Assembly (NCBI RefSeq): GCF_007997155.1
Contig: NZ_VORT01000009.1
Coordinates: forward strand, 62,001-126,000
Source of the DNA: Aequorivita antarctica
GTDB lineage: Bacteria > Bacteroidota > Bacteroidia > Flavobacteriales > Flavobacteriaceae
Length of the DNA: 64,000 nucleotides
Reading direction: 5' to 3'
A program made the translations under genes and the position numbers. The notes beneath the pieces were generated by a model. The model searched no databases, had not been told where the DNA came from, and was given only the letters and a program-made list of their open reading frames with translations. Of the stretch, positions 10,878 to 19,964 are shown one piece after another. The number at the start of each line of letters is the position of its first letter. The first letter of the stretch is position 1.

Positions 10878-12191
10878 TCAACCTCTCAATTTTTTTAAAA
10901 AATCATCCGCCGAACTATGCGAAACAGGGTTTGTTATAAAATATTCCATAGCCTTTTCCTTTTCTTCTTTGGAAGCGTGCAGTTGGTTTAGAATATTCAT
11001 CAAGTGCATTTTCATATGTCCCTTTTGAATTCCCGTGGTAACCAAAGATCGCACTGCCGCAAAGTTTTGGGCTAAACCGGCAACGGCCAGAATTTTCATC
11101 AATTCTTTTGCATTGGGTTTTTGAAGAATCTCAAAAGCAAGTTTTGTCAATGGGTGAAGTGAAGTCAATCCGCCAACTGTGCCAACAGCTAGAGGCAATT
11201 CAATCCAAAAAGTGAAAATATCATCTTCTATTTTAGCGTGTGTTAAACTTCCGTAATAACTGTTTCGGGCGGCATAAGCGTGCACGCCAGCTTCCACAGC
11301 TCGAAAATCGTTGCCAGTTGCTAAAACTACCGCGTCTACCCCGTTCATAATACCTTTGTTGTGGGTTACAGCGCGTCGCGATTCGGTTTTGGCGATTTCA
11401 ATGGCGCGCACAAACTTTTGGGCAAACTGCTTTCCGTCGTTATGTTTTGTGGTAAGTTCTTCCACATTACAGCTCACTTCGGCATGTACTAAACACTCGG
11501 GAACGTAGTTGGAAAGGATGCTCATTACTACTTCGGGATAGCTATCTTTTTTCTGGAAGCTTTCATAATTTCTAGCTTCGTCTTCAAAAGTGTGTGCTAT
11601 CTGCTCCAAACAACTGTTTATAAAATTGGCGCCCATAGCATCCAAAGTTTCAAAAGTGGCGTGAATGTAATAATAGCCGTCCAAAATGTGCGATTTGTCA
11701 ATAAGCGAAAGCTTTACAAGACCTCCGCCACGGGCTTTCATGTTTTTTTCGAGGGATTGGATGCTAAGGCGAAGTTTCGGTTTTACTTCTTCAAAGAAAT
11801 TTTCGATATCCTTTTCACTTCCATAGAAATTGAAATGAACCTGACCATTTTTTTCTGTGGAAATCACTTCGGCTTTAAATCCACCGCGTTCCAGCCAAAA
11901 TTTGGCAGCATTACTCGCGGCAGCTACAACGGAACTTTCTTCGGTAACCATTGGAAGGGCAAACAACTTTCCGTTTATCAAAAAGTTGGGCGCAATGCCG
12001 AAAGGCATATAATAATTGGATAGGGTGTTTTCAATAAAATCATCGTGTAGTTGCTGTAAGGAAGTATCTTCATTCCAGTACTTTTTTAGAATTTGAACGG
12101 AATCAGGATTGTTTTGCAGATAATTTTCTGCAAGCCATTCAATTTTTTCATCCTTTGATTTTTTTGAAAATCCAGAAACGGGTTGGTTCAT
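10878..12191 (-). CDS. mvaA: Hydroxymethylglutaryl-CoA reductase, class II
   Basis: 437 residues. By homology it interconverts HMG-CoA and mevalonate. Class II features are present: dimer motif ENTLSNY with the PFGIAPNFLING loop, catalytic Glu in TEESSVVAAAS (Glu84/85), Lys279 in THNKG, Asp295 in GNDFRAVEAG, and His392 in KGHMKMH. It is probably biosynthetic here, supplying isoprenoids, since the next gene is a GYDIA-type GHMP kinase. A TATCTTTG -7 box lies just upstream. Confidence 0.95.
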   Translation of the reverse strand: MNQPVSGFSKKSKDEKIEWLAENYLQNNPDSVQILKKYWNEDTSLQQLHDDFIENTLSNYYMPFGIAPNFLINGKLFALPMVTEESSVVAAASNAAKFWLERGGFKAEVISTEKNGQVHFNFYGSEKDIENFFEEVKPKLRLSIQSLEKNMKARGGGLVKLSLIDKSHILDGYYYIHATFETLDAMGANFINSCLEQIAHTFEDEARNYESFQKKDSYPEVVMSILSNYVPECLVHAEVSCNVEELTTKHNDGKQFAQKFVRAIEIAKTESRRAVTHNKGIMNGVDAVVLATGNDFRAVEAGVHAYAARNSYYGSLTHAKIEDDIFTFWIELPLAVGTVGGLTSLHPLTKLAFEILQKPNAKELMKILAVAGLAQNFAAVRSLVTTGIQKGHMKMHLMNILNQLHASKEEKEKAMEYFITNPVSHSSADDFLKKLRG

Positions 12192-12266: not shown

Positions 12267-13028
12267 TTATCTAATTGATTTGATGAAAGATGAAATTCCT
12301 GCAAATCCTTTTTCCGAAAGCATTTTTATAAAAGCACTACCAATAATTGCTCCGTTGGTGTGCAACGTGGCTTGGCTGAAAGTTTTCGAATCCTGAATCC
12401 CAAATCCCACAATTAGGGGATTATTTAGTTTCAGAGAAGCGATTCGTTCAAAATAATTTTCCTGTTCCTTGCCAAAACCGTCGGAGCTGCCAGTAACGCT
12501 GGCACTGCTCACCATATAAATAAAGCCTTTGGAAGCAGTATCAATCTGTCTAATTCTTTCTTTGGAAGTTTGGGGCGTGATTAAAAAGATATTCAACAAA
12601 CCATATTTTTTAAAAATTTTAGCATAATGTTCTTCATATTCAGCCAAAGGGAGGTCAGGAAGGATCAGGCCATCAATGCCAACTTCGGCACATTTTTTAC
12701 AAAAATTTTCTACGCCAAATTGAAGAACGGGATTAAAATAACCCATAATTATCAATGGAATGGAAACAGTGTTTCGCACGTCTTTTAATTGCTGAAAAAG
12801 TAAATCGGTTGTCATGCCATTTTCTAGAGATTCTTGTGAACTCGCTTGAATAGTGGGGCCATCGGCTAAGGGATCGCTAAAAGGCAAACCAATTTCAATC
12901 AAATCGACTCCGCTTTTTTCCAATTGCTGAAGTATTTCAATAGTATCATCCAATTTTGGATAGCCTGCTGTGAAATAAATGGAAAGCAGTTTTTTGTTTT
13001 CTGAAAGTGTATTTTTTATTCTATTCAT
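12267..13028 (-). CDS. trpA: Tryptophan synthase alpha chain
   Basis: 253 residues. It cleaves indole-3-glycerol phosphate and channels indole to TrpB. Visible marks: LIEIGLPFSDPLADGPTIQ (catalytic Glu and Asp region), GLILPDLPLAE, and the phosphate loop GFGIQ. It is the last gene of the trp operon, 47 bp behind trpB. That spacer holds a perfect 14-bp inverted repeat. Confidence 0.97.
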   Translation of the reverse strand: MNRIKNTLSENKKLLSIYFTAGYPKLDDTIEILQQLEKSGVDLIEIGLPFSDPLADGPTIQASSQESLENGMTTDLLFQQLKDVRNTVSIPLIIMGYFNPVLQFGVENFCKKCAEVGIDGLILPDLPLAEYEEHYAKIFKKYGLLNIFLITPQTSKERIRQIDTASKGFIYMVSSASVTGSSDGFGKEQENYFERIASLKLNNPLIVGFGIQDSKTFSQATLHTNGAIIGSAFIKMLSEKGFAGISSFIKSIR

Positions 13029-13040
13029 AACATAAGATTA

Positions 13041-13071
13041 GACCTAACAGGTTTCTAAAACCTGTTAGGTC
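13041..13071. repeat. Perfect inverted repeat between trpB and trpA
   Basis: Two 14-bp arms (GACCTAACAGGTTT and its complement) flank a 3-nt loop. It fills most of the trpB-trpA gap. There is no T run, so it is not a standard terminator. It resembles palindromic intergenic repeats seen in Bacteroidota and could affect mRNA processing or stability. Confidence 0.75.
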
Positions 13072-13075
13072 TCAT

Positions 13076-14257
13076 TTATAGATTAAAATATTTTATATAA
13101 GTATCAAGATCTTTATCGCCCCGTCCACTCAAATTCACCACAATAACATCATCCTTTTTAAATTTTCTCGTTTCAAAAATTGCGAGCGCGTGACTGCTTT
13201 CAATGGCGGGAATAATGCCTTCCAGTTTGCAGAGTTCAAGTCCAGCTTCCATAGCTTCATCATCGGTTATTGAAATAAATTCCCCGCGTCCGCTTGCAAA
13301 AAGATTAGCATGCATAGGCCCAACACCCGGATAATCCAATCCTGCCGAAATGGAGTGGGGTTCGGTAATTTGTCCGTCGGCAGTTTGCATCAACAGTGTT
13401 TTACTTCCGTGTATAATCCCCACTTTTCCCAAAGCTGAAGTTGCAGCGCTCTCGCCACTGTCAATTCCCTTTCCAGCAGCTTCAACGGCGATAATCCCAA
13501 CTTCCGGAGTTTCCAAATAATGATAAAAAGCTCCAGCGGCGTTACTGCCGCCACCAACACAAGCTACCACAAAATCCGGATTTTCACGACTTTCCTTTTC
13601 TTTGAGCTGGGTTTTTATTTCTTCAGAAATTACACTTTGAAATCGCGCAACCATATCAGGGTAGGGATGTGGTCCTACCACACTACCTATAATATAATGT
13701 GTATCCACCGGATTGTTTATCCAATCGCGAATGGCTTCATTGGTGGCGTCTTTCAAGGTTTTGCTGCCGCTCTTAGCCGGAACCACTTTTGCACCCAGCA
13801 TTTTCATTCGAGCCACATTTGGAGCTTGGCGTTTTATATCGACTTCCCCCATAAAAACAATACATTCCAAACCCATTAAGGCGCATACGGTGGCGGTTGC
13901 AACACCGTGTTGTCCAGCGCCTGTTTCAGCAATAATTCGGGTTTTGCCCAAACGTTTTGCCATTAAAATCTGACCAATGGTGTTATTTACTTTATGTGCG
14001 CCTGTGTGACAAAGATCTTCCCGTTTTAAATAGATTTTGGTGTTGTATTTTTCTGAGAGTCGTTTCGCAAAATATAGGGGAGTCGGTCGTCCCACATAAT
14101 CTTTCAGTAATTCACGAAACTCTTTTTGGAAGGATTCTTCCGCCATTACTTTTAAATAATTCTGCCGAAGCTCCTCCACATTTGGATAAAGCATTTCGGG
14201 AATATACGCTCCGCCAAACTCGCCGTAATAGCCTTTTTCGTTTACGTTATAATTCAT
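13076..14257 (-). CDS. trpB: Tryptophan synthase beta chain
   Basis: 393 residues, normal for TrpB1. It condenses indole with serine using pyridoxal phosphate. The PLP lysine lies in [13 protein letters not shown], the phosphate-binding loop is GGGSNAAG, and ETGAGQHG and the C-terminal LSGRGDKD are conserved. Upstream, a heptamer repeat separates it from trpF. Confidence 0.98.
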
Positions 14258-14264
14258 ATTTTCA

Positions 14265-14299
14265 GTATTGAGTATTGAGTATTGAGTATTGAGTATTGG
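14265..14299. repeat. Heptanucleotide tandem repeat, 5 copies of GTATTGA
   Basis: Four perfect GTATTGA units and a fifth with a final G lie between trpF and trpB, 8 bp upstream of the trpB ATG. A looser TCTTG-rich stretch follows to about 14340. Copy-number change could alter spacing before trpB. Confidence 0.85.
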
Positions 14300-14323
14300 T
14301 TCTTGTCTCTTGGCTCTTGATTT

Positions 14324-14998
14324 TTATGTCTTGGCTGGTGGTTCTTTTAAGTAGTGCTTCAAAACTTCGGTGAATGATTTTAATGCCGAAACATCTTTCA
14401 TTCCCGGGGCAGTTTCAAACTTACTGTTTACGTCAATCGCGTGAATGGGAAGGTCTGTTTTTAGTAAATTTTTCAAGGACTCAATTTCTTCCAAACCAAT
14501 TCCGCCGCTTAAAATAAAGGGTTTTTTAGAAGGATAATTTTTGAGAATCTCCCAATTAAAAGTGAAACCATTTCCGCCTTTTTCTTTTCCTTTAGTGTCG
14601 AAAAGGAATTTATCTACAATGCTTTCGTAGGATTTTAAAATTTCGAAATCGAATTTATCTCTTATTGAAAAAACTTTCCAAATCTCGATAGTATCACTTT
14701 TGTCTGATCGAGCGCCATCGAGACCTTCTTTTAATTTTTTACAGAAATCCACACTTTCATCCCCGTGCAATTGAATTATATTCAAATTATATTTTCTGAC
14801 TTTCTCTAAAATTTCTTCCACAGAAGCATCCACAAAAACCCCAACTTTTTTAATTCCAGCCGGCAACTTAGGAATGACTTCGCCGTCAAAAAACCTCGGA
14901 CTTTTTTCATAAAAAATAAAACCCATATAATCTGGCTGAATTGCTGCCACTTCTGCTACATTGTGTTTCATTCCACAGATTTTTAGCAATGTTTTCAT
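14324..14998 (-). CDS. trpF: Phosphoribosylanthranilate isomerase
   Basis: 224 residues. It isomerises phosphoribosylanthranilate in Trp synthesis. The catalytic Cys is in LKICGMK, Asp in VGVFVDAS, with IIQLHGDE and the phosphate-site loop LSGGIG. Residues ~92-106 (EGLDGARSDKSDTIEIW region) look like extra sequence compared with usual TrpF and are encoded by a repeat element. It overlaps trpC by 4 bp. Confidence 0.95.
   Translation of the reverse strand: MKTLLKICGMKHNVAEVAAIQPDYMGFIFYEKSPRFFDGEVIPKLPAGIKKVGVFVDASVEEILEKVRKYNLNIIQLHGDESVDFCKKLKEGLDGARSDKSDTIEIWKVFSIRDKFDFEILKSYESIVDKFLFDTKGKEKGGNGFTFNWEILKNYPSKKPFILSGGIGLEEIESLKNLLKTDLPIHAIDVNSKFETAPGMKDVSALKSFTEVLKHYLKEPPAKT
14683..14725 (-). 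repeat. Dispersed repeat read in frame inside trpF
   Basis: On the coding strand it starts GGTCTCGATGGCGC and ends TATCGAGATT, so its ends are inverted (TCTCGA/TCGAGA). The first 14 bases match those of the argS element (GGTCTCGACGGAGC) at 12 positions. It is translated without a stop. Confidence 0.6.
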
Positions 14999-15777
14999 CT
15001 TAATTTTTCAATAAATTGCTTTGCAGTCTCGCCGGGATTTTCGGTTTTCATAAAGTTTTCACCAATTAAAAAACCTTCGAAACCGTATGTTCTTAATTCT
15101 TTTATAGTTTCAACATCACTGATTCCGCTTTCAGATATTTTTACAAAATCGGTTGGAATTTCTTTTGAAAGCTTTCTACTGGTTTCAATATTCACTTTGA
15201 AGTTTTTCAGATTCCGATTGTTCACGCCAATCATATCTACATTCGGTAACAATGATTTTTGAAGCTCTTCAGAATTATGAACTTCCAGCAAAACATCCAG
15301 TTTTAAATTTTTTGCTAAATGCGAAAACTGCTTTAACTCTTCAGCAGAAAGGCAGGCGGCAATCAATAAAATGGCATCTGCACCATAGGCTTTTGCCTCA
15401 TAAATTTGGTAGGGGTCAATTATAAATTCCTTCCGAAGAATGGGGATGGAAACCGTTTTCTCTGCCACCAATAAATCGTCCAGCGAGCCGCCAAAAAAAT
15501 TGGAATCTGTTAATACCGAAATTCCTTTGGCGCCGGCAAGTTCATAGCCCGAAACCACTTCGTGCAACAAAACCTTATCATTGATTACGGATTTGCTGGG
15601 CGAGCGACGTTTGTGTTCAGCAATGATGCCCGTAGTTGAAATGCGCAACGCTTCCGCCAAAGATTTTGTTTCTTTCGCAAACAGCGGAAACTTTTCAAGC
15701 AAGCGTACTGGAATTGCTTCTTTTTTTGCTGCAACTTCTTTGAGTTTATAAGCAGTTATGTTATCTAAAATTGTCAT
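14995..15777 (-). CDS. trpC: Indole-3-glycerol phosphate synthase
   Basis: 260 residues. It closes the indole ring. Conserved marks: IIAEHKRRSPSKS (catalytic Glu/Lys), ISVLTDSNFFGGS, ILRKEFIIDPYQIYEAKAYGADAILLIA, and IGVNNRNL. Overlaps of 4 bp with trpD and trpF indicate translational coupling. Confidence 0.97.
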   Translation of the reverse strand: MTILDNITAYKLKEVAAKKEAIPVRLLEKFPLFAKETKSLAEALRISTTGIIAEHKRRSPSKSVINDKVLLHEVVSGYELAGAKGISVLTDSNFFGGSLDDLLVAEKTVSIPILRKEFIIDPYQIYEAKAYGADAILLIAACLSAEELKQFSHLAKNLKLDVLLEVHNSEELQKSLLPNVDMIGVNNRNLKNFKVNIETSRKLSKEIPTDFVKISESGISDVETIKELRTYGFEGFLIGENFMKTENPGETAKQFIEKLR

Positions 15778-16766
15778 TTTCTCAGTTTTTGTAATTGTTT
15801 TAAGGAATTCAATGCTTTTCCGGATTGCAACGATTCTTGCGCTTTTTCAAAACCTTCTTTTATTTTGCAATTCTCCACTACTGAAATTGCCATTCCAGCA
15901 TTTGCGCAGACTACGTTGTTTTGGGCTTCTGTACCTTTTCCGTTTAAAATATCCATAAATATTACGGCGGATTCTTTTACCGTTTCCCCACCAAATATTT
16001 CAGATTCCTCGATTTGTTTCACACCAAAATCTTCCGCATTCAAAATATTTTCTGAATTTTTTGTAATCACTTTCACGGGACCAGTCAGCGATATTTCGTC
16101 ATATCCGTCAACTGCGTGCAGGACTGCGTAATTTTTTTCGCTTTTTTGATAGAGATAGCCATACATTCTGGCTAATTCCAAATCGAAAACTCCAACTAAT
16201 TGGTTTTTTGGAAATGCTGGGTTCACCATCGGCCCAAGCATATTGAAGAAGGTTTTTACGCCTAATTCTTTTCGGATTGGCGCCACGTTTTTCATTGCGG
16301 GGTGGAAGAGCGGTGCGTGCAAAACACAAATTCCTGCTTCATCCAAACAGCGTTTTAAAAAATCTTCTTTGTTACTGAATTTTATGCCCAAAGCTTCCAT
16401 CACGTTGCTACTTCCGCTAACAGAAGAAACGCCGTAGTTGCCGTGTTTTGTAACCTTCAAACCTACGCCAGCTGTAACGAAAGATGCCAAGGTTGAAATA
16501 TTAAAGGTGTTTTTTCCGTCTCCGCCAGTTCCGCATAAATCAATGGTGTTGTATTCACTGAAATCTACCGCTAAACACAGGTCTAGCAAAGCATCGCGAA
16601 AACCTTCCAATTCTTCCAAACTTACGTTTCGCATCATAAAAACCGTCAAAAAAGCAGCTATTTGGTTTTGGTTGTATTTTCCTTCGGAAATATTCACCAA
16701 AACAGTTCTTGCTTCTTCTTTTGAAAGCTGTTCGTGATTTATTAATCTGTTTAAAATCTGTTTCAT
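15774..16766 (-). CDS. trpD: Anthranilate phosphoribosyltransferase
   Basis: 330 residues. It joins anthranilate to PRPP. The signature DLCGTGGDGKNTFNISTLASFV, the KHGN loop and GSSNVMEALG are all present. A spacer of 92 bp upstream of it (16767-16858) separates it from trpG and holds loose CACTGAA-like repeats without an ORF. Confidence 0.97.
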   Translation of the reverse strand: MKQILNRLINHEQLSKEEARTVLVNISEGKYNQNQIAAFLTVFMMRNVSLEELEGFRDALLDLCLAVDFSEYNTIDLCGTGGDGKNTFNISTLASFVTAGVGLKVTKHGNYGVSSVSGSSNVMEALGIKFSNKEDFLKRCLDEAGICVLHAPLFHPAMKNVAPIRKELGVKTFFNMLGPMVNPAFPKNQLVGVFDLELARMYGYLYQKSEKNYAVLHAVDGYDEISLTGPVKVITKNSENILNAEDFGVKQIEESEIFGGETVKESAVIFMDILNGKGTEAQNNVVCANAGMAISVVENCKIKEGFEKAQESLQSGKALNSLKQLQKLRK

Positions 16767-16858
16767 TTTTATAAGTCGATGAGTCTATATGTTTATAGTT
16801 TAGGCTTAAAGTCTATTTAAAAGTGCTGCCCACTGCCACTGAACACTGAATACTTTTT

Positions 16859-17425
16859 TCAGCTTTCAATCCAATTTTTAATAATCTGTTTCCCCATTGG
16901 CGTCAGCACACTTTCGGGGTGAAATTGTACGCCACAAACATCGTATAGCTTATGCCGAAGCGACATAATTTGTCCGTTTTCATCTACGGAAGTAATTTCC
17001 AGAATTTCCGGGAAGCCTTCCTTTGAGACCACCCAACTGTGATATCGGCCAATTTCAATTTCTTTCTCAAGTCCTTTAAAAAGCGGTTCTTCCTCTGAAA
17101 TAATGATTGCTTTGGTAGAAACACCGTGAAAGACTTTGCTTAAATTTTCAAGGGTGCCGCCAAAAACCTCACCGATTGCCTGTTGCCCCAAACACACACC
17201 CAAAATAGGTTTTGAAGTTGCGTATTTTTGAATCACTGCTTTTAGCAATCCAGCTTCATCTGGAATTCCTGGACCTGGTGAAAGAAGAATTTTGTCGTAA
17301 TCTTCAGCTTCTTCCAAATAAAACTTATCGTTTCGTCTTACGGTTACTTCGCAATCCAATTCTTCTAAATAATGAACCAAATTGTACACAAAACTGTCGT
17401 AATTATCTATTACCAATATTTTCAT
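16859..17425 (-). CDS. trpG: Anthranilate synthase component II (glutamine amidotransferase)
   Basis: 188 residues, a separate class I amidotransferase that supplies ammonia to TrpE. The oxyanion SPGPGIP, nucleophile elbow GVCLGQQAI, and QFHPES with its catalytic His and Glu are intact. It follows trpE by 2 bp. It could also serve para-aminobenzoate synthesis, since no separate pabA is in view. Confidence 0.96.
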   Translation of the reverse strand: MKILVIDNYDSFVYNLVHYLEELDCEVTVRRNDKFYLEEAEDYDKILLSPGPGIPDEAGLLKAVIQKYATSKPILGVCLGQQAIGEVFGGTLENLSKVFHGVSTKAIIISEEEPLFKGLEKEIEIGRYHSWVVSKEGFPEILEITSVDENGQIMSLRHKLYDVCGVQFHPESVLTPMGKQIIKNWIES

Positions 17426-17427
17426 AA

Positions 17428-18855
17428 TTATATACTTTCAGCTAATTCCAGCGCCTTTGTGAGTGCGCCCAATTTGTTATAAACTTCCTGTAATTCATTT
17501 TCTTCGTTGCTTTCTGAAACCACTCCAGCTCCAGCTTGATAATGTAAAGTATGGTTTTTACTCACAAAAGAACGAATGATAATTGCGTGATTAAAATTGC
17601 CGCTGAAATCCATAAAACCAATGGCGCCACCGTAAAATTCGCGACTTCTATTTTCATATTTTTCCAGCAATTGCAGCGCTTTGTGTTTTGGCGCACCGCT
17701 CAAGGTTCCTGCGGGAAACGTGTCCGCAACTATCTGCATTGTTATAGTTTCTGGATTTTTTGTTGCCGTAACCTTGCTCACCAAATGAATAACGTGTGAA
17801 AAAAATTGAACCTCACGATACGTTTCTACTTTCACATTTGTTCCGTGGCGACTTAAATCGTTTCGTGCCAAGTCAACCAGCATAACGTGTTCGCTATTTT
17901 CTTTTTTGTCTTCGGAAAGTCTTTTGGCTAGTTCCGCATCCTGTTCGTCATTTCCGGTGCGTTTGAAAGTTCCGGCTATTGGATGAATTTCGGCCCGATT
18001 TCCTTTTACAATTAATTGCGCTTCGGGAGAACTTCCAAAGATTTTAAAATTTCCGTAATCAAAATAGAAAAGGTAGGGCGAAGGATTTACGCTTCGCAAA
18101 GCTCTGTAAACATTAAATTCATCACCTGTGAATTTTTGGGAAAATCGTTTGCTTGGAACAATTTGGAACACATCGCCACGCTGGCAGTGTCCCTTACATT
18201 TTCGAACCAAAGCTTTAAAATCTTCGTCATTTAAATTTGTAGTTCTATCTCCGTTTATTTTAAAAGGATATTCCGCGAAACTCTTCGACTTTAAGATTTG
18301 TTCAATCTGCGGAATGTTGTTTTCAGAATCAAAACAGTGCGCAAAAATATAGGCTTCGTTGTTGAAATGGTTTATTGCGATTATATTTTGATAAACTGCA
18401 TAATACAGATCGGGCATTTCTAGATTCTCTTCTTTTTTATGAAGTTCAATATCTTCAAAATACCGCACTGCATCAAAAGCCATAAAGCCGAAAAGACCAT
18501 TGTTGATGAACTTGAAATTGCTTGCTTCTCCCTTCGCTAAAGCTTCGGAAGACAGAACCGAAGAAAAAGAAGAAGCAAATTCATCTAAAACTTTTGGGAC
18601 ATTTGTGCTTTCAGTAATTCTGGTTTCAAGACTTTTTCCATCCGGAAAATGCTGAAATATGGTTTCATTTTCAACTTTTATGGAAGCAATCGGATTCAAA
18701 CAGATATAGCTGAAACTATTGTCGTTAGCGTGATAGTCGCTACTTTCCAGCAAAAGGCTATTCGGAAATTTGTCGCGCAACCGCAAATACACGGAAACGG
18801 GCGTGAGGGTATCTGCCAATAGTTTTTTTGAATGTGTTTTTAAGTTGTATTTCAT
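17428..18855 (-). CDS. trpE: Anthranilate synthase component I
   Basis: 475 residues, first enzyme of Trp synthesis (chorismate to anthranilate). The LLESSDYH segment matches the Trp feedback site. The chorismate-binding domain fills the C-terminal half, with FQIVPSKRF, EIHPIAGTFKRTG, ENSEHVMLVDLARND and FPAGTLSGAPK. First gene of trpEGDCFBA. A terminator ends 23 nt upstream of the ATG, so its expression depends on the leader attenuator. Confidence 0.98.
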   Translation of the reverse strand: MKYNLKTHSKKLLADTLTPVSVYLRLRDKFPNSLLLESSDYHANDNSFSYICLNPIASIKVENETIFQHFPDGKSLETRITESTNVPKVLDEFASSFSSVLSSEALAKGEASNFKFINNGLFGFMAFDAVRYFEDIELHKKEENLEMPDLYYAVYQNIIAINHFNNEAYIFAHCFDSENNIPQIEQILKSKSFAEYPFKINGDRTTNLNDEDFKALVRKCKGHCQRGDVFQIVPSKRFSQKFTGDEFNVYRALRSVNPSPYLFYFDYGNFKIFGSSPEAQLIVKGNRAEIHPIAGTFKRTGNDEQDAELAKRLSEDKKENSEHVMLVDLARNDLSRHGTNVKVETYREVQFFSHVIHLVSKVTATKNPETITMQIVADTFPAGTLSGAPKHKALQLLEKYENRSREFYGGAIGFMDFSGNFNHAIIIRSFVSKNHTLHYQAGAGVVSESNEENELQEVYNKLGALTKALELAESI

Positions 18856-18878: not shown

Positions 18879-18912
18879 AAAAAAAAGGCTTGTCGTGATT
18901 GACAAGCCTTTT
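18879..18912 (-). terminator. Attenuator terminator of the trp operon
   Basis: On the minus strand a 12-bp perfect stem (AAAAGGCTTGTC with GACAAGCCTTTT) and 6-nt loop AATCAC end in a run of eight U. It lies between trpL and trpE, so transcription would stop before trpE unless the hairpin is prevented. Confidence 0.92.
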
Positions 18913-18949
18913 CGTATATTTTTAATACCATAGGTGTTCAGTTCACGAC
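18892..18949 (-). promoter_or_regulatory. Predicted antiterminator pairing of the trp attenuator
   Basis: GTCGTGA at 18943-18949 (minus strand), which contains the trpL stop codon, is complementary to TCACGAC at 18892-18898, which spans the terminator loop and its 3' arm. Pairing of these seven bases would block the terminator. A ribosome stalled at the Trp codons leaves the first segment free; one that reaches the stop codon covers it. Confidence 0.7.
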
Positions 18950-18999
18950 GTTTTTCGTAAAGTAGACCACCACCAAGTATTTGTTGTAAATGTTTTCAT
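18943..18999 (-). CDS. trpL: trp operon leader peptide
   Basis: An 18-codon ORF from ATG at 18999 encodes MKTFTTNTWWWSTLRKTS. Three consecutive Trp codons sit at positions 9-11, followed by a stop that overlaps the antiterminator segment. The terminator begins about 30 nt later and trpE follows. The ATG lies just after a promoter -7 box, so the 5' leader is very short (about 6 nt). The layout is that of a classical ribosome-stalling attenuator: with low Trp-tRNA, the ribosome stalls at WWW and lets the operon be read. The match of codons, hairpin and context makes chance unlikely. Confidence 0.9.
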   Translation of the reverse strand: MKTFTTNTWWWSTLRKTS

Positions 19000-19010
19000 T
19001 GTTTCGGGTT

Positions 19011-19018
19011 CAAAGATA
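19011..19018 (-). promoter_or_regulatory. -7 promoter box of the trp operon
   Basis: TATCTTTG on the minus strand fits TAnnTTTG and sits 12 bp before the trpL ATG. A clear -33 TTG is not seen. A 16-bp palindrome (TAAGATT-ct-AATCTTA type, 19058-19073) about 40 bp upstream could be an operator. The remaining spacer up to 19242 is AT-rich with nothing else recognisable. Confidence 0.7.
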
Positions 19019-19242
19019 TATTTTTTTTGGAAGACATTATTATTATACTGAAAACTTTAAGATTCTAATCTTAGTTTACTATTAAATGATGGAAAATTTT
19101 AAATAGAAATTATGAGAAACTTTTCTTTTAAAGACAGTACTATTAACAAGAAGTTAATCATTGAAATCCCAGACTAATTTGTTTTCGGTTTTTATATGAA
19201 TAAACCCTTCGCATTTATTATTTTTACCAAAAATTTTATAAA

Positions 19243-19554
19243 ATGGCAGACTTAACTCAACAGCAGTGGAGTGAACAATGTGAGAAGGACGATAATGCAG
19301 TAATTTTAGACGTTCGAACAGATGCCGAATTTGATGAAGGCTACATTCCGGGTGCATTGCAGATTGATATTTTTAATGGGGCAGAATTTCTTAAACGCGC
19401 AAAAGCATTAGATCCTGAAAAAAACTATTACGTTTATTGCCGTTCTGGCGGCAGAAGTGGTCAGGCCTGTATGTTACTAAATTCCATAGGAGTGAAAAAC
19501 GCATACAATTTAAAAGGCGGAATTATTGAGTGGAAAGGTGAAATAAACAATTAA
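19243..19554 (+). CDS. Cytoplasmic single-domain rhodanese
   Basis: 103 residues, one rhodanese domain without a signal peptide. The active-site loop is YCRSGGRSGQ with Cys66 as the sulfur carrier; VILDVRTDAEFDEGYIPGALQIDI is the usual substrate-side motif. Role is persulfide or sulfane-sulfur transfer; partner unknown. A second, exported rhodanese follows 11 bp later. Confidence 0.93.
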   Translation: MADLTQQQWSEQCEKDDNAVILDVRTDAEFDEGYIPGALQIDIFNGAEFLKRAKALDPEKNYYVYCRSGGRSGQACMLLNSIGVKNAYNLKGGIIEWKGEINN

Positions 19555-19565
19555 TCTAAATAATT

Positions 19566-19964
19566 ATGAAAAATATAGCTATCCTTTTTGGACTTACTTT
19601 TATTCTTTTTTTTACAGCCTGTAAAGACAAAAGTGTTGCGCAGGAAATCCAAGTTTTAACTCCCAAGGAATTTCACGATGCAATTGCAGGCAAGAAGGAT
19701 GTTCAGTTGGTTGACGTTCGTACTCCTGAAGAATTTGCAGAAGGACACCTTGAAAACGCGCTGAATATAAATATTTCAGAGACCGATTTTATCACAGAAG
19801 CTGAAAAGTTAAATTTAGATGAACCAATTTATCTTTATTGCCGAAGTGGAAAAAGAAGCGCCAAAGCTGCTTTGATTTTAAAAGACGTTGGCTTTAAGGA
19901 AATTTATGATATGAAAGGTGGTTTCTTGCATTGGGAAGCCGACGGACTTCAAAATAAAAACTAA
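19566..19964 (+). CDS. Rhodanese-domain lipoprotein
   Basis: 132 residues. A lipoprotein signal (FILFFTAC, lipid Cys19) is followed by one rhodanese domain with YCRSGKRS and catalytic Cys92. It is likely anchored in the envelope. It forms a two-gene unit with the cytoplasmic rhodanese upstream, pairing sulfur handling on both sides of the inner membrane. Confidence 0.93.
   Translation: MKNIAILFGLTFILFFTACKDKSVAQEIQVLTPKEFHDAIAGKKDVQLVDVRTPEEFAEGHLENALNINISETDFITEAEKLNLDEPIYLYCRSGKRSAKAALILKDVGFKEIYDMKGGFLHWEADGLQNKN

Follow-up and report, generated by a model that had tools for sequence, protein, structure and literature searches.

A comparative study from 2004, by Vitreschak and co-workers, reportedly named attenuators in Bacteroidetes. 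The RNA family Bacteroid-trp goes back to Weinberg et al. (2010; PMC2864571), as far as the available part of that paper indicates. In the accessible text of a 2019 paper (PMC6414381), a Bacteroid-Trp RNA lies upstream of the trp operon of F. psychrophilum and is likened by the authors to the E. coli leader. A transcriptome study of the same species (2021, PMC9723704) speaks of 'strong clues' for leader-peptide attenuation before amino-acid operons, with trp unnamed in the portion of its text at hand. For F. psychrophilum, then, the same RNA family stands ahead of the trp operon, and the statements in the available text are brief. Two further systems serve for comparison: E. coli trpL, with tandem Trp codons and three competing helices (PMC1183508, in the part available), and the leaderless trpL of Sinorhizobium meliloti, whose leader RNA begins with the ATG of the leader ORF or very close to it, according to the available part of PMC7298713.

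Here, we find that the leader ahead of the trp operon in the window (the whole 64,000-nt stretch of Aequorivita antarctica DNA that was analysed) is the same element as Rfam family RF01692, Bacteroid-trp. It scores 69.6 bits against a gathering score of 49, over the full 131 positions of the model, with an E-value of 1.4e-6 over the whole window, and it is the single match at E ≤ 0.001 in the window's genome. As in the family, it lies ahead of trp genes in a member of Bacteroidota; seven of them follow directly downstream, among which trpE and trpF have best matches below NCBI's curated cut-offs. The leader contains a short ORF rich in Trp codons, and an intrinsic terminator lies between this ORF and the first gene (Table 1). 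We are highly confident that the element, a member of Bacteroid-trp, attenuates transcription in response to Trp by way of the ribosome, as the E. coli trp attenuator does. The core of this finding is already known, because the element belongs to RF01692, a family that the available text of PMC6414381 ties to trp control in F. psychrophilum, and the antiterminator is not claimed here as unpublished. In the RF01692 model, a stem takes in the Trp codons and stops with the final base of the terminator's 5′ arm, so that terminator and antiterminator are both absent from it as pairs. What the present computation adds is a covarying antiterminator, a spacing rule, the spread of such leaders through the class, and a near-leaderless habit.

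Table 1. Parts of the trp leader and operon in the window (coordinates are those of the window)
Feature	Position	Strand	Basis
-7 box TATCTTTG, match to flavobacterial TAnnTTTG	19011..19018	-	sequence; box position -12 to -5 according to the available part of PMC9723704
Predicted transcription start	19005..19006	-	box position and published spacing (PMC9723704, available part)
Leader ORF MKTFTTNTWWWSTLRKTS, 18 codons and stop	18943..18999	-	sequence
Stop codon TGA of leader ORF	18945-18943	-	sequence
WWW, three consecutive Trp control codons	18967..18975	-	sequence and conservation in relatives
Outer stem (18981-18976/18929-18924 and 18971-18968/18936-18933), resembling the Rfam structure	18924..18981	-	folding
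Anti-antiterminator (1:2) hairpin, UUUACGA (18961-18955)/UCGUGAA (18948-18942)	18942..18961	-	folding
Antiterminator strand 2, GUCGUGA	18943..18949	-	complementarity, covariation, masking model
Antiterminator strand 3, UCACGAC, in the loop and first part of the 3′ arm of the terminator	18892..18898	-	complementarity, covariation, masking model
Intrinsic terminator, 12-bp stem 18912-18901/18894-18883 and U8 18886-18879	18879..18912	-	sequence, folding, covariation
Rfam RF01692 Bacteroid-trp match, model positions 1-131	18901..19019	-	covariance-model search
Operon trpE-G-D-C-F-B-A	12267..18855	-	best family matches
trpE; trpG; trpD; trpC	17428-18855; 16859-17425; 15774-16766; 14995-15777	-	best family matches
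trpF; trpB; trpA	14324-14998; 13076-14257; 12267-13028	-	best family matches

A sequence-only reading of this locus had described the 18-codon ORF with three consecutive Trp codons, the 12-bp terminator with U8 ahead of trpE, and a 7-base pairing of GTCGTGA with TCACGAC over the ORF stop. All three are present, and the two 7-base segments are exact complements. To that reading must be added that the element is an RNA family already described by Weinberg and colleagues. Four of the U's in the U8 run double as part of the 12-bp stem, and 23 nt separate the run from the ATG of trpE. The leader as a whole folds more stably than shuffled versions of itself (z −5.76; 0/200 shuffles equally stable). 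In this fold, the 1:2 hairpin masks the antiterminator strand and is nested in the outer stem, which contains Trp codons; its p-value against shuffles is 0.027. Compared with E. coli trpL, the window has three Trp codons instead of two, and its antiterminator strand pairs with the loop and 3′ arm of the terminator, whereas the helix that we find in E. coli pairs with the 5′ arm.

In the scheme that we infer, which covers the response to Trp, translation of the ORF, the place where transcription starts and the kinetic order in which the helices form, RNA polymerase would begin just upstream of the leader ORF, by a few bases. With little charged tRNA-Trp available, the leading ribosome would stall at codons 9–11, open the 1:2 hairpin and leave GUCGUGA free; this segment would then pair with the emerging UCACGAC of the terminator loop, allowing read-through into trpEGDCFBA. 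When Trp is plentiful, a ribosome at codons 16–19 would cover GUCGUGA and the terminator would form. Without translation, the 1:2 hairpin and the outer stem would favour the terminator.

A masking model, with an assumed ribosome footprint of −15 to +11 around the A-site codon, gives the antiterminator (2:3) a probability of 0.98–0.99 when the A site is on codons 9–11 and the transcript ends at UCACGAC or two bases past it. From codon 16 to the stop, the modelled 2:3 probability is 0, and terminator pairs form with a probability of 0.29–0.42, then 0.84–0.87. A ribosome at codons 4–8 or 12–14 also yields 2:3 in this model (0.68–0.99), so the predicted range for stalling is wider than the Trp codons and not specific to them. 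With no ribosome, 2:3 stands at 0.82 and then, two bases later, at 0.38; termination without translation is thus weakly predicted at that point. Once the full stem is transcribed, the modelled terminator wins at equilibrium in every ribosome state, and the switch must therefore be kinetic.

At equilibrium, the full leader folds into the terminator in every case, and one would see the same if an ordinary constitutive terminator lay next to a chance reading frame. We find this explanation scarcely credible. The upstream neighbour is divergent (19243-19554, plus strand), so no upstream gene on the minus strand is seen that would need a terminator at the leader, and both the covariation and the recurrence across the class, described below, speak against it. 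The neighbour itself and a second gene beside it, 19566-19964, are both oriented away from the trp operon and have rhodanese-like matches that fall short of the curated cut-offs.

Comparative evidence for an attenuator comes from relatives. In a set of 148 genomes, the window's included, 71 contain an RF01692 match; 70 of these loci were collected (G089 was left out), and 68, window included, entered the alignment. The leader start was defined as the last ATG ahead of the Trp codons; the two loci set aside were L063, in which no ATG start was found, and L036, which has TGA at the first Trp codon. The sequence-only reading had pointed to aligned relatives as the place where conserved WW(W) codons and compensatory changes in GTCGTGA/TCACGAC should appear, and both do. 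WWW is found in 64/68 leaders, and five of the seven antiterminator pairs show changes on both sides, with 0/500 shuffles reaching any of the five measures used. Pairing holds in 87.6% of alignment cells in register versus at most 50.2% when the strands are slid by 1–3 columns; the in-register figure benefits from the structure having been read off the window's row. Clean compensatory cases are L053 (GTCGCAA with TTGCGAC) and L030 (GTCGTAG with CTGCGAC). The outermost G-C pair of the antiterminator is unpaired in 43/68 leaders. For the terminator, double changes are seen in 7 of 12 pairs, and RNAalifold run on the 68 rows predicts the terminator alone. A further candidate for a clean change, the same-genus pair L204/L208, was dropped, the register of the helix differing by eye.

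We also compared each leader with the terminators of others. Leaders with an ORF and a terminator numbered 100 (the window counted twice, as L001 and L190) and were reduced to 50 that differ in terminator core. In L070, L207 and L214 the terminator had missed the script's rule and was entered by hand. When the region between Trp codons and terminator is paired with its own terminator, the mean duplex energy is −15.8 kcal/mol, versus −12.3 (sd 0.4) with swapped terminators, and 0/10000 permutations are as low, kinship among the leaders being ignored. Thirteen of the 50 leaders rank in the best 5% of their swaps, and 44 do better than more than half of them. Taken singly against shuffles, the best helices reach p<0.05 in 21/50 leaders and p<0.2 in 34/50; the 1:2 hairpin reaches p<0.05 in 10/44. 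From these comparisons and the masking model, the antiterminator appears to be mutually exclusive with the terminator and to be placed where a ribosome stalled on the control codons would free it. One variant, L061 (G139), has its best antiterminator strand (TCAAAGTCTT) paired with the 5′ arm of the terminator, not with the loop and 3′ arm.

The sequence-only reading had also presented the design as one antiterminator stem overlapping the stop codon. The overlap is real in the window; as a complete design the description falls short, since the fold contains an anti-antiterminator hairpin as well and the position of the stop drifts. Distances were measured from the last Trp codon and then from the end of the first Trp cluster, and the second measure is quoted here. 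Of the 50 leaders, 40 have an antiterminator strand that begins 14–22 nt past the Trp cluster (the median is 17, and 10/50 lie outside), a range that was picked after seeing the first measurement; the 28 of these leaders that come from the class set account for 21 of the 40. Shuffled sequences place it there in a mean of 8.8/50 cases (maximum 16 in 200 runs), and swapped terminators in a mean of 22.6/50 (maximum 30 in 100 runs). The stop codon, in contrast, lies anywhere from 9 to 42 nt past the Trp cluster among the same 50 leaders. By the same measure, E. coli K-12 trpL has strand 2 at 14 nt and its stop at 9 nt, with strand 2 lying beyond the stop. We therefore reject overlap with the stop codon as a design principle: the stop drifts while the distance from Trp codons to antiterminator holds, so the overlap in the window is incidental. 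The steadier distance fits, as far as the sequence comparison goes, the leading edge of a stalled ribosome, and steady spacing set against drifting stops amounts to a testable statement on ribosome geometry. By analogy, the position of the stop may set basal read-through in these leaders; in the available part of PMC1183508, stop position was modelled in this role for E. coli.

To ask how far such leaders extend, we keyed the search of the class on TrpE, because sampling based on Rfam would introduce bias. In 119 genomes, TrpE was found at 37 places in 36 genomes (one of them, L190, being the window). Thirty-two places were judged, the set being taken without the window, the contig ends L200 and L203, and the trpB-first loci L217 and L221. 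In 31/32 there is a short ORF in which two or more Trp codons fall within a span of four, compared with a mean of 0.8/32 in shuffles (maximum 7); the one miss, L218, has a single Trp codon by eye. The RF01692 cut-off was reached in only 4 of the 28 trpE loci scanned out of the 37 found (L200, L203 and L220–L226 were left out of the scan), and the window is among the 4. The comparison suggests that Trp attenuation by ribosome stalling is common in the class, beyond the detection of the current Rfam model. In L193, L196, L197, L198 and L209, spaced Trp codons (WCW, WRW, WLW) take the place of WWW. At five loci (L078, L081, L096, L217, L221) the operon begins with trpB; L078, L081 and L096 have a Trp leader ahead of trpB, and in L217 an RF01692 match lies further upstream.

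With this, the parts of the element, their pairing and their spacing from the Trp codons find support in sequence comparison, and the ribosome-stalling attenuation proposed by the sequence-only reading is well supported by covariation, by the recurrence of the Trp-rich ORF, and by the spacing from Trp codons to antiterminator. Sensing of Trp might instead bypass the ribosome and depend on a T-box, a Trp riboswitch or a protein that binds RNA, TRAP for example, leaving the WWW ORF as a by-product; terminator-controlled trp operons of such kinds exist in other phyla. We consider this very improbable here. With gathering scores as the threshold, Rfam matches in the window are limited to one tRNA and Bacteroid-trp, with no T-box or other riboswitch, and a T-box or other known riboswitch was rejected on this ground. 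In addition, neither the recurrence of the Trp-rich ORF in the class nor the distance that the switch keeps from the Trp codons would be expected from sensing of this sort.

Ribosome-mediated attenuation could be combined with a second role. The terminated RNA or the peptide may also act in trans, as described for rnTrpL/peTrpL of S. meliloti in the available part of PMC7298713, in which case part of the conservation would reflect that role. The N-terminal part of the peptide is indeed similar among close relatives. Past WWW, however, conservation tracks the RNA over the peptide, and the length and C terminus of the peptide vary, so that we regard a trans role as unlikely. Depending on the leader, the TCGTGA motif is found across the stop, within the ORF or past the stop among the 68 aligned leaders, and its changing position relative to the ORF marks it as an element of RNA, not of peptide.

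Beyond these sets, a pattern search of named genomes returned at least 119 stretches, and among the 80 loci listed, 46 have a trpE or trpB match downstream; the pattern favours terminators of the window's type, and for L086, counted among these 46, the trpB match is weak. The hosts of these 46 are presumably all Bacteroidota, as far as their names could be placed, and include Paludibacter, where the leader is ahead of trpB. The other 34 have no trpE or trpB match downstream; many of them are in other phyla and resemble chance hits. Among the 77 relatives without an RF01692 match, 12 were searched for TrpE together with the congener G012. TrpE was found in 7 of the 12, and a Trp-rich leader in 5 of the 7. 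At L238 no leader was seen within 400 nt upstream of trpE, and for L232 the available upstream sequence is 159 nt, its far part foreign-looking. G002, G007 and G008 gave neither an RF01692 match nor TrpE at 1e-60.

In F. psychrophilum, the promoter box has been mapped at −12 to −5, according to the available part of PMC9723704. With that spacing, the TATCTTTG box of the window would place the start at about 19006 and leave a 5′UTR of about 7 nt. The sequence-only reading had put the 5′UTR at about 6 nt: the short 5′UTR stands, with a slightly different value. TAnnTTTG lies no more than 40 nt from the leader ATG in 62/68 leaders of the relatives set (window included) and 21/30 of the class set, versus 2.7% of shuffles. 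For spacing we used 98 leaders, the set being taken without L190 and L220. The end of the box is within 22 nt of the ATG in 81/98, and subtracting 4 from the box-to-ATG spacing, in line with the box position in the available text of PMC9723704, gives predicted 5′UTRs of at most 18 nt in those 81, below 10 nt in 55/98 (counted from the list) and of 0–1 nt in 9/98. For comparison, about 3.7% of 5′UTRs in B. thetaiotaomicron are shorter than 10 nt (PMC7366714, available part), and in F. psychrophilum 5.5% of mapped mRNAs are leaderless, the median 5′UTR being 24 (PMC9723704, available part). A near-leaderless start, as predicted from sequence and published box spacing, looks usual in the clade. 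The earlier view that leaderless coupling of a regulatory peptide is unusual would need correction in light of the 5′UTRs predicted for these 55 leaders and of the leaderless trpL described in S. meliloti (PMC7298713, available part), which differs in belonging to a proteobacterium and in that the predicted 5′UTR of the window is about 7 nt, not zero. Leaders of this kind may serve as natural reporters of whether, in bacteria that lack Shine-Dalgarno signals, ribosomes stay close behind RNA polymerase, and of how translation starts on 5′UTRs predicted at 0–18 nt.

Other amino-acid operons were also considered. In the window's own genome, ilvD gave no match, and the stretch upstream of the best aspartokinase match contains no attenuator visible by eye. 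Upstream of hisG (G000:C22, 351641-352183, minus strand), the leader L227 has His codons in MNRTILHHHHIIFHAHAR followed by a terminator, and a TAGATTTG box 11 nt ahead of the ATG. Judging from its sequence, this is probably a His attenuator of the same near-leaderless design. Upstream of a prephenate dehydratase gene (G000:C63, 85596-86138, plus strand), L231 has a Phe-rich ORF (MNTVFTFNNFWFFYFKNR...) and a strong terminator, with no TAnnTTTG box close to the ORF; its sequence, too, points to a probable attenuator, here for Phe. The best helices begin 12 (hisG) and 10 (prephenate dehydratase) nt past the control codons, which were set by hand and without a control. A broader proposal, which we put forward tentatively and consider somewhat more doubtful than secure, is that one attenuator design widely governs the amino-acid operons of Bacteroidia, a class in which the flavobacterium studied is reported to lack Shine-Dalgarno initiation. 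A near-leaderless control ORF would be loaded with a ribosome on leaving the polymerase, and a footprint ruler of about 17 nt from the last control codon would fix the antiterminator while stop, terminator and peptide drift. On this proposal, the near-absent 5′UTR would be a requirement, and transcription and translation would be closely coupled at these leaders.

Finally, the congener G012 shows a leader beside a reduced operon. No TrpE was found there at 1e-60; in L239 (G012:C42:19000-29500), matches to trpD (residues 1-73) and trpA (residues 216-253) lie directly side by side, and trpG has a full-length match and may have been retained for folate synthesis. Besides the TGA at the first Trp codon of its relatives, the G012 leader (L036) has CGG in place of the third, and its terminator stem contains a mismatch. 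The decay agrees, as a sequence observation, with the idea that the operon is what keeps the leader under selection; it is a single case and no proof. Downstream of trpA in the window, on the same strand, lies an HMG-CoA reductase gene (10878-12191), which is also found downstream of the reduced operon in G012.
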